In this document: piece after piece, positions 15,802-50,467 of the stretch | How positions within the stretch are numbered: the stretch's first letter is position 1 | Layout of the letters: the number at the start of each line of letters is the position of its first letter | Origin: Sphingorhabdus sp. | Lineage (GTDB): Bacteria; Pseudomonadota; Alphaproteobacteria; Sphingomonadales; Sphingomonadaceae | Assembly: GCA_028279555.1 (NCBI GenBank) | Contig: JANQNO010000009.1 | Location: 62,001-126,000 of the forward strand | DNA: 64,000 nt | Direction of reading: 5' to 3' | Program-made: the position numbers and the translations under genes | The notes under the pieces: generated by a model | Seen by the model: only the letters and a program-made list of their open reading frames with translations | Told to the model about the DNA's origin: nothing | Databases searched by the model: none

Positions 15802-15894
15802 TGTCATCCCCGCGAAAGCGGGGATCCATGGTCTGATATTGCGGTTCTAATATCACGTTTTGTCCATGGAACCCCGATCAAGTCGGGGGTGACA
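15802..15894. repeat. inverted doublet of the CCCCGA-TCGGGG palindromic repeat
   Basis: Unit 1 (15802-15831, plus orientation) starts TGTCATCCCC and ends GGATCCATGG. Unit 2 (15864-15894) is the same repeat inverted, starting CCATGG and ending GGGTGACA. Each unit is itself an imperfect palindrome. The 32-bp spacer contains GATATT...AATATC, so the whole doublet can fold into one long hairpin, as REPINs do. It lies between frr and uppS and carries no gene. The same repeat bounds the two GIY-YIG cassettes at 45.0 and 50.0 kb. Confidence 0.9.
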
Positions 15895-44975: not shown

Positions 44976-45343
44976 TGTCATCCCCGACTTGATCGGGGAT
45001 CCAAGGGCTGATTTATCGGTTTAGATCGAGATAAAGATCACGCCAATCCGGGTTATTTCCCTCAATCAGGTCGAATTTCCATGTCCGGTTCCATCTCTTC
45101 AACCGCTTTTCCCGAGCAATTGCCTCATTCACATCGGAATGCTCTTCGTAATACACCAAACGCGTCAGGCCATATCTTTTCGAGAATCCGGGGACCAGTT
45201 TTTCACTATGCTCGAAGACTCTGCGCGCCAGATCATTGGTCATTCCGAAATAGAATGTGCCGCGTTTCTGATTGGTCAAAATATATACGTGATAGCATTT
45301 TGACATGATGATCCATGGACCCCCGATCAAGTCGGGGGTGACA
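44976..45343 (-). mobile_element. GIY-YIG cassette A (368 bp) with terminal inverted repeats
   Basis: A 31-bp left repeat (44976-45006, starts TGTCATCCCCGACTTGATCG) and its inverted right copy (45313-45343, ends GGGGGTGACA) bound a single nuclease ORF. Only 6 bp separate each repeat from the stop and the start codon. No target duplication is evident. It sits between accD and folC, reading with them. The length and layout are identical to cassette B at 50.04-50.41 kb. Confidence 0.8.
45013..45306 (-). CDS. GIY-YIG nuclease of cassette A
   Basis: The 97-residue protein starts at ATG 45306 (MSKCYHVYILTNQKRGTFYF). GIY-YIG catalytic positions are present: Tyr in HVYIL, Tyr in FYFGMTNDL, the Arg pair after it, and the Glu in NEAIAREKRLKRW. 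It is a stand-alone domain of the single-domain UPF0213-like group. It is about 78% identical to the cassette B copy (76 of 97). The frame stays open through the right repeat (L-I-G-G-P-W), so a TTG start inside the repeat is possible but less likely. Confidence 0.9.
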   Translation of the reverse strand: MSKCYHVYILTNQKRGTFYFGMTNDLARRVFEHSEKLVPGFSKRYGLTRLVYYEEHSDVNEAIAREKRLKRWNRTWKFDLIEGNNPDWRDLYLDLNR

Positions 45344-46241: not shown

Positions 46242-46316
46242 GTCATCCCCGCCTTGAGCGGGGATCCATAAACCAGACTGTCAGACCATGGACCCCCGAT
46301 CAAGTCGGGGGTGACA
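46242..46316. repeat. inverted doublet of the CCCCGA-TCGGGG palindromic repeat
   Basis: Unit 1 (46242-46270, GTCATCCCCGCCTTGAGCGG onward) and inverted unit 2 (46286-46316, CCATGGACCCCC ... GGGTGACA) flank a 15-bp spacer without a gene. It lies between trpA and accD, 1.3 kb from cassette A, and is the gene-less counterpart of the cassettes. Confidence 0.88.
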
Positions 46317-50037: not shown

Positions 50038-50405
50038 TGTCGCCCCCGACTTGATCGGGGGTCCATGGCGGGAGCTATCGGTTAAGATGAAAATATAGAT
50101 CGCGCCAATCGAGATTGTGTTTTTCGATCAGCTCGATTTTCCATTTTCTATCCCATCGCTTCAGTCGCTTTTCCCGCGCGATGGCTTCATTCACATCCCC
50201 ATGTTCCTCACAATAAACGAGGCGGGTGAGATTATATTTCTTGGTAAACCCCGGAATCAGCTTTTCACGATGCTCATAAATGCGACGCGGCAAATCGTTT
50301 GTCATACCGACATAGAAAGTGCCGCGTTTCTGGTTGGTCAAAATATAGACATGGTATGTTTTTGACATTTCAGCCCATGGACCCCCGATCAAGTCGGGGG
50401 TGACA
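50038..50405 (-). mobile_element. GIY-YIG cassette B (368 bp) with terminal inverted repeats
   Basis: A left repeat (50038-50068, TGTCGCCCCCGACTTGATCG onward) and its inverted right copy (50375-50405, ends GGGGGTGACA) bound one nuclease ORF with 6 bp at each junction. The length is exactly that of cassette A. The two end repeats differ by one base from each other while the inner gene is ~22% diverged from cassette A at protein level. It lies between pyrF and aqpZ. Confidence 0.8.
50075..50368 (-). CDS. GIY-YIG nuclease of cassette B
   Basis: The 97-residue protein starts at ATG 50368 (MSKTYHVYILTNQKRGTFYV). It has a canonical YVG second motif, the following Arg pair, and the Glu in NEAIAREKRLKRW, so the active site looks intact. 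It is a paralogue of the copy at 45.0-45.3 kb with the same start, stop and distance to the flanking repeats. No other domain is present. Confidence 0.9.
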   Translation of the reverse strand: MSKTYHVYILTNQKRGTFYVGMTNDLPRRIYEHREKLIPGFTKKYNLTRLVYCEEHGDVNEAIAREKRLKRWDRKWKIELIEKHNLDWRDLYFHLNR

Positions 50406-50436
50406 ATAGCGGGAGAGCACATACTGGCAAATTTAG

Positions 50437-50467
50437 TGTCATCCCCGGCTTGGCCGGGGATCTATGA
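50437..50467 (+). repeat. single copy of the palindromic repeat
   Basis: TGTCATCCCCGGCTTGGCCG onward is one unit in plus orientation, 31 bp after the right end of cassette B, just before the pyrF stop. It has compensating changes in the stem (CCCCGGC/GCCGGGG), which supports selection on hairpin structure. Confidence 0.85.

Follow-up and report, generated by a model that had tools for sequence, protein, structure and literature searches.

In the genome of a Sphingorhabdus sp., a gene for a small GIY-YIG nuclease lies between two inverted repeats, which raises the question of whether gene and repeats form one element and, if so, what the nuclease does to the repeats. We addressed this in a stretch of 64,000 nucleotides (the window; GenBank assembly GCA_028279555.1, contig JANQNO010000009.1, positions 62,001 to 126,000) and in other genomes of the genus, the phylum and other phyla. 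The best reading of the unit appears to be that of a GIY-YIG analogue of the RAYT-REP pair.

CGTC REPs are a described superfamily of repeats, predominant in alphaproteobacteria, in which neisserial dRS3 repeats are CGTC-1 elements, 8-bp stems occur in families 1 and 2, and 5-nt loops occur in families 2 to 4 (Di Nocera, De Gregorio, Rocco 2013, PMC3733652). In the available part of that survey, no dedicated transposase was apparent and no association with transposase genes was reported, what moves these REPs was left open, and it was suggested that they might be dying out.

Two units with the same ends in the window

The first unit (44976-45343) consists of two 31-nt arms, 90% complementary and spaced 306 nt apart, and of the gene between them (Table 1). 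The near-perfect inverted repeat with three mismatches given in a preliminary description of this DNA was found again (28/31 nt pair); the GIY-YIG nuclease proved to be the sole gene inside, in agreement with the earlier view that nothing else fits in the unit, and the distance of 6 bp from the repeats to start and stop was confirmed for the 97-aa frame (45306-45013, minus strand), which starts at a conserved Met. A longer open frame is possible from a TTG at 45330, within the right arm. Folded as single-stranded DNA (ssDNA), both arms form an 8-bp stem with a 5-nt loop.

A second unit of equal length and spacing, overlooked earlier, was found at 50038-50405, between two genes that we take, from their translations, to be aquaporin-like and pyrF-like. 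A longer open frame of its nuclease gene starts at 50422, outside the right arm, and the locus is syntenic with one in another genome of the genus (L040 in G033). When the two 2.4-kb stretches were aligned locally, the best alignment covered exactly 44976-45343 and 50038-50405; ungapped identity was 75% inside the units versus 27% (background) in the flanking 60 bp on each side. The alignment begins and ends at the repeats, and 44976-45343 therefore marks the ends of a real unit. By eye, no flanking direct repeat indicative of a target-site duplication was seen at either window unit; a MITE or an insertion sequence was rejected on this ground and because the only gene is a GIY-YIG nuclease, which is not a known transposase class.

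TABLE 1 Repeat arms, nuclease genes and gene-free REPs in the window
Feature	Position	Strand	Remarks
First unit, left arm, CGTC/TGTC-type REP hairpin	44976..45006	+	TCCA tail points inward; 28/31 complementary to right arm
First unit, GIY-YIG nuclease gene, 97 aa, stop codon included	45013..45306	-	6 bp to each arm
First unit, right arm, inverted REP	45313..45343	-	TCCA tail points inward
Second unit, left arm	50038..50068	+	Repeat search and alignment with first unit
Second GIY-YIG nuclease gene	50075..50368	-	78% amino acid identity to first over 97-aa reading
Second unit, right arm	50375..50405	-	Identical to first unit's right arm
Nuclease-free REP doublet, REPIN-like	46242..46315	.	Tails face, 20-nt spacer; interval between accD and a trpA-like gene
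Nuclease-free mixed doublet	15803..15893	.	GAAA-loop REP faces CTTGA-loop REP
Single REP just beyond second unit	50438..50464	+	REP motif scan

The arms are CGTC-type REPs, which also occur without the gene

Both arms of both window units carry a TGTC head. The 8-bp stem and 5-nt loop of the first unit's arms fall within the 8 to 9 bp and 4 to 5 nt that define the superfamily (PMC3733652), and the repeats have an unpaired TCCA tail and are dispersed in many copies, often as doublets. With the published CGTC REPs they share the CGTC/TGTC head, the 8-bp stem, the 5-nt loop, the CCA tail and the frequent doublets in opposite orientation (PMC3733652). As far as the available part of the survey goes, those REPs were published without a dedicated enzyme, whereas here a GIY-YIG gene is their regular partner (PMC3733652).

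Allowing up to 3 mismatches, the 21-nt core of the repeat matched at 7 places in the window (0 in shuffles) and at 25 in the genome, where the reversed pattern matched nowhere. Across 464 kb of this genome we found 57 REP-like matches versus 25 in the reversed sequence, so that single matches are partly noise; pairs less than 150 bp apart were tail facing in 11 cases and head facing in 2. Exact REP cores numbered 16 in the genome. The gene-free doublet at 46242-46315 folds as one long hairpin (z -5.1). Gene-free doublets (15803-15893; L009 to L012 and L017 to L020) are often heterodimers of a GAAA- or GAAG-loop REP and a CTTGA-loop REP; both window cassettes, in contrast, carry two CTTGA-loop arms.

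The nuclease and its homologues

The first nuclease matched PF01541 (E 1.8e-14), and among solved folds its structure model (pLDDT 89) came closest to UPF0213 1zg2, followed by the structure-specific nuclease Slx1. Membership in the RAYTs was thus ruled out by the PF01541 match, the GIY-YIG fold and a TGTC rather than a GTAG head. Pairwise comparison of the two window copies and the orthologue from G033 gave a dN of about 0.13 and a dS that was saturated in two pairs and 0.9 to 1.4 in the third; dN this low against dS this high indicates purifying selection on the window-type protein.

Six small GIY-YIG genes were found in the genome, and longer open frames hold two further PF01541 matches. 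Inverted arms were present at both window copies and at the copies on contigs C3, C4 (10 kb) and C7, and they represent several REP types; on C7 the flank alignment scored 43, and a repeat finder (at least 14 nt), which found the pairs on C3 and C4, gave none there.

The protein tree (86 rows, 96 columns) had few resolved forks. The distribution of Pseudomonadota on it requires 8 changes; well-supported branches force 3 of these, a hint of transfer that falls short of proof. A Neisseria gonorrhoeae open reading frame (ORF) is homologous to the window nuclease (52.8% identity over 92%) and clusters weakly with a Lysobacter row (98/31). A dRS3-type repeat begins a few bases past its matched stretch, and other dRS3-type repeats lie around it.

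Nuclease genes lie between inverted repeats far above chance

Each gene was given a flank score, defined as the strongest inverted match that its left 150 bp made with its right 150 bp. The genus sample comprised 45 genomes, 29 of which had matches; of these 58 matches, 54 were scored (four weak L006-like rows were left out). Inverted flanks (score of at least 30) were found at 43 of the 54 homologues versus 0 of 2,079 control positions in the same loci, which were mostly coding. Homologues lacking such flanks, which the preliminary description had named as a sign of chance adjacency, were a minority (11/54 with scores below 30). The direct-orientation score of the same flanks was also high (at least 34 in 24/54) because the arms are palindromic, and it is the tail motif that shows the inward orientation.

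In the phylum, the nuclease was present in 88 of 349 genomes (E 1e-12). Among 69 loci (29 given and 40 picked, one per further genome, among the matches listed), scores of at least 34 were reached by 42/68 versus 0/1,372 controls, the flanks of one locus being too short to score. Named loci came from many phyla; of the best 80 among 578, 2 had flanks too short to score, and the corresponding figures were 48/78 and 29/5,041. A strict motif (GTC-type head, hairpin and TCCA-like tail) faced inward on both sides at 85 of 200 nuclease loci versus 4 of 3,938 controls, the genus part consisting of 51 loci without L006, L066 and L067. The tail motif pointed inward at 99 left and 112 right flanks of the 200 and outward at 39 and 41, respectively. 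Loci with the strict motif include representatives of Flavobacteriaceae, Omnitrophota, Uhrbacteria, Parcubacteria, Elusimicrobia, Chloroflexi and Planctomycetota.

A count of stem covariation on motif-selected arms was discarded as circular, because the scan itself had demanded pairing. In an unselected test, 43 of 68 reference-free GTC arms, drawn from 139 cassettes scoring at least 30, had at least 6 of 7 pairs (shuffled mean, 0.5; largest, 3). The search that the preliminary description proposed for sphingomonad genomes, for nucleases between inverted repeats above chance, succeeded in the genus and also in the phylum and in other phyla.

Arms are matched in pairs and vary with the nuclease

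Most nucleases carry matched arms. Of 39 left arms in the 15 genus genomes with at least 2 scorable loci, 35 resembled the right arm of their own cassette most closely and 3 gave ties; the remaining one was matched better by the other window unit, which is of the same REP type. Similar proteins tended to have similar arms among 41 genus cassettes with scores of at least 34 (Spearman 0.60, 792 between-genome pairs) and also at non-syntenic loci (Spearman 0.47, 721 pairs), synteny being judged by tblastx of the flanks, in which short contigs may conceal some syntenic pairs. None of 1,000 permutations gave a correlation as high, in a statistic that ignores kinship. Chance adjacency was rejected on the basis of the control positions, the strict motif, the matched arm pairs and this correlation.

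Across the 349 genomes of the phylum, 65 had at least 4 CGTC-1 type REPs, and the nuclease was found in 39 of these versus 49 of the remaining 284 (odds ratio 7.2, p 2e-11, kinship being ignored). No nuclease was detected at E<=1e-12 in 16 of 38 genomes with at least 10 such REPs, and 49 of the 88 nuclease genomes had fewer than 4, in a count that covers this REP type only. In the genus, the core CCTGAACTTGTTTCAGG had a median of 33 copies in 13 genomes that have a nuclease with matching arms and of 8 in the remaining 32 (one-sided p 0.005; genomes were assigned to groups with the counts already in view, and kinship is ignored). Ten genus genomes had at least 20 copies of one REP core and no matching full nuclease, G021 having a partial one. 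The core CCCGACTTGATCGGG was present in 16 copies in the genome of the window, in 2 in G033 and in at most 5 in the other 43 genus genomes.

Turnover of the cassette at its loci

Both flanks were common to another nuclease locus at 35 of 51 genus loci, and at least one flank was at 43 of 51; the gene therefore moves rarely and is largely inherited in place. RAYTs do not copy themselves, according to the available part of the source (PMC8049555).

Inspected by eye in 30 genomes (L089 to L118), the accD-folC junction held a cassette in 2, a doublet in 10, a single REP in 1, a solo palindrome in about 7, half a palindrome in 2, other repeats in 2 and none of these in 6. The two cassettes belong to the genome of the window and to G040, whose nuclease is 59% identical and whose REP type is different. 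Where G040 has its cassette, relatives have a solo GTCAT...ATGAC-like palindrome, and the alignment of G040 with G041, G016 and G031 reaches the palindromic core on both sides (by eye). This can be explained by insertion into a palindromic target or by loss via recombination between two palindromic cores. The junction across the genus is a useful natural laboratory for REP turnover.

At ruvA-ruvB (30 loci, L292 to L321), the genes abut in 14, a nuclease cassette lies between them in 9, other DNA does in 5, and 2 could not be judged. In four of the 14 empty alleles, a 31-nt tail matches the far side of the cassette region (by eye); clean excision at this locus was dropped in favour of deletion, as these four alleles seem to have lost neighbouring DNA too. 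The expectation that relatives would differ by presence or absence with clean ends was thus borne out in part, by eye, for the G040 cassette and its relatives' solo palindrome at accD-folC; four of 14 empty ruvA-ruvB alleles look deletion-like, and 35/51 loci share both flanks.

Interpretation and alternatives

We think it probable that the unit is a gene-bearing REP doublet whose GIY-YIG nuclease would recognise its own hairpins, and that copying during repair would spread the REPs. The architecture and the co-diversification are established by the results above: two CGTC-superfamily REP hairpins face each other with their TCCA tails, the 97-aa nuclease gene taking the place of the short spacer. 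The steps of binding, cleavage, copying by repair and mobilisation that we infer would run as follows. The nuclease would recognise hairpins of its own REP type, whether extruded or in ssDNA (incoming DNA or the template of the lagging strand), and would nick beside them. The break might then be repaired by copying another REP-bearing locus through the palindromic cores, a process that would spread and maintain REP doublets and would only rarely copy the whole 368-bp unit. We hold it very likely that the nuclease recognises its own arms, while for mobilisation of REPs or cassettes by the nuclease we see the chances as about even. The broader proposition, which we advance tentatively and with somewhat more doubt than belief, is that CGTC REPs are pan-bacterial miniature elements mobilised by GIY-YIG nucleases, each co-evolving with its own hairpin, that the 368-bp cassette is autonomous, and that REP propagation has here a second, independent enzymatic solution.

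RAYT-REP pairs and REPINs resemble the unit in a gene flanked by REPs that it presumably moves, in gene-free doublets and in a mostly stationary gene, as described in the available parts of the sources (PMC8049555, PMC3733652). They combine an HUH/Y1 transposase with a GTAG tag, whereas the window unit combines a GIY-YIG nuclease with a CGTC-type tag (TGTC head). The earlier suggestion of a nuclease-plus-REP unit akin to RAYT/REPIN in a different catalytic family was strongly upheld, since gene and repeats are adjacent much more often than chance predicts at all three levels, genus, phylum and beyond. GIY-YIG homing endonucleases are encoded by nuclease genes that may spread by break repair, and the likeness lies in just these two features, a GIY-YIG nuclease gene and possible spread via break repair; unlike them, the window nuclease has 97 aa and no intron or DNA-binding extension, and its presumed target brackets the gene and is not split by it.

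A closer relative may be Ssn, reportedly (Nat Commun, 2025) a family of site-specific GIY-YIG ssDNA nucleases from Neisseria meningitidis. The study is said to describe NTS repeats in hundreds of copies and thousands of homologues with target sequences of their own, and Ssn is said to modulate natural transformation. The N. gonorrhoeae ORF may be Ssn itself. Likeness to Ssn/NTS lies in a small GIY-YIG protein with a multicopy repeat and in the neisserial homologue among dRS3-type repeats. Our literature search found no paper linking CGTC REPs (or dRS3) with GIY-YIG nucleases, and the reported Ssn work may overlap. The preliminary description knew of no named system with such an architecture; this holds only in part, as the repeats are the described CGTC REPs and the Ssn/NTS work, as reported, may name the architecture. 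What is new here is the cassette architecture, the identification of the cassette ends as CGTC REPs and the co-diversification, part of which the Ssn work may cover.

The chief rival explanation, which we consider rather unlikely and which is compatible with mobilisation, is a host-useful, Ssn-like enzyme that cuts incoming or exposed ssDNA at REPs and so tunes transformation or recombination, nothing being mobile and the flanking REPs serving as targets or autoregulatory sites. Purifying selection and conserved synteny fit it, as do a fold nearest to UPF0213 and to the GIY-YIG domain of the structure-specific Slx1, the existence of the neisserial homologue and the reported effect of Ssn on natural transformation. 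By itself, however, such a resident enzyme leaves unexplained the exact-ended duplication at two unrelated loci and the presence in a genome of several paralogues that each have a REP pair of their own.

Two further explanations concern the repeats rather than the enzyme. The REPs might be kept as RNA elements of the gene, terminators or mRNA-stabilising hairpins at both ends, and the arms do form stable hairpins 6 bp from start and stop; we regard this as highly improbable in view of the unpaired GTC heads, the inward TCCA tails, a copy upstream of the start that termination would not require and the doublets that occur without the gene. Least credible of all is hitch-hiking, by which intergenic REPs would have come to flank a small intergenic gene by chance or through a shared hot spot. 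Other REPs and doublets do lie in the same intergenic regions, including the gene-free doublets at accD-folC in 10 of 30 genomes (by eye), but the 0/2,079 control positions in the same loci (mostly coding), the matching of arm types to each nuclease, the arm-protein correlation at non-syntenic loci and the recurrence in Bacteroidota, candidate phyla and others speak against it.

The reading as a gene-bearing REP doublet with its own nuclease provides a specific, testable enzyme for CGTC REPs, a family thought to have none, and specificity pairs are built in, as a single small genome holds several nucleases along with several types of hairpin. If it is true, REP-type miniature elements would be run by two unrelated nuclease folds, and a panel of small, possibly hairpin-specific nucleases would become available.

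Other GIY-YIG genes and plasmid records

The sixth small gene of the genome (L006, G000:C6:362696-362935) belongs to another GIY-YIG subfamily (34% identity) and is flanked on each side by a doublet of an unrelated palindrome, of the CTTCGACAAGCTCAGGG type; L006 and these doublets are a possible second nuclease-repeat pair. On C1, a weak PF01541 match (26.8 bits; G000:C1:153056-153322) lies within a 397-aa open frame and is distinct both from the small nucleases and from the UvrC-sized 669-aa frame on C5.

Homologues of the window nuclease were absent from 50,697 phage records at E 1e-5 and present in 33 of 72,556 plasmid records. In four plasmid records examined, inverted repeats surround the homologue in three; the fourth, from Planktothrix, had no inverted pair of at least 16 nt in the surrounding 901 bp. 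This last homologue (L291, Planktothrix agardhii plasmid p1, 1498-1782) lies between a type IIL MmeI-like restriction-modification gene and the DISARM gene drmA. Two records filed as N. gonorrhoeae plasmids (NZ_CP119142.1, with 17 annotated features, and NZ_CP119140.1) are 2.17 Mb long, the size of a chromosome, and are probably chromosomes mislabelled as plasmids.
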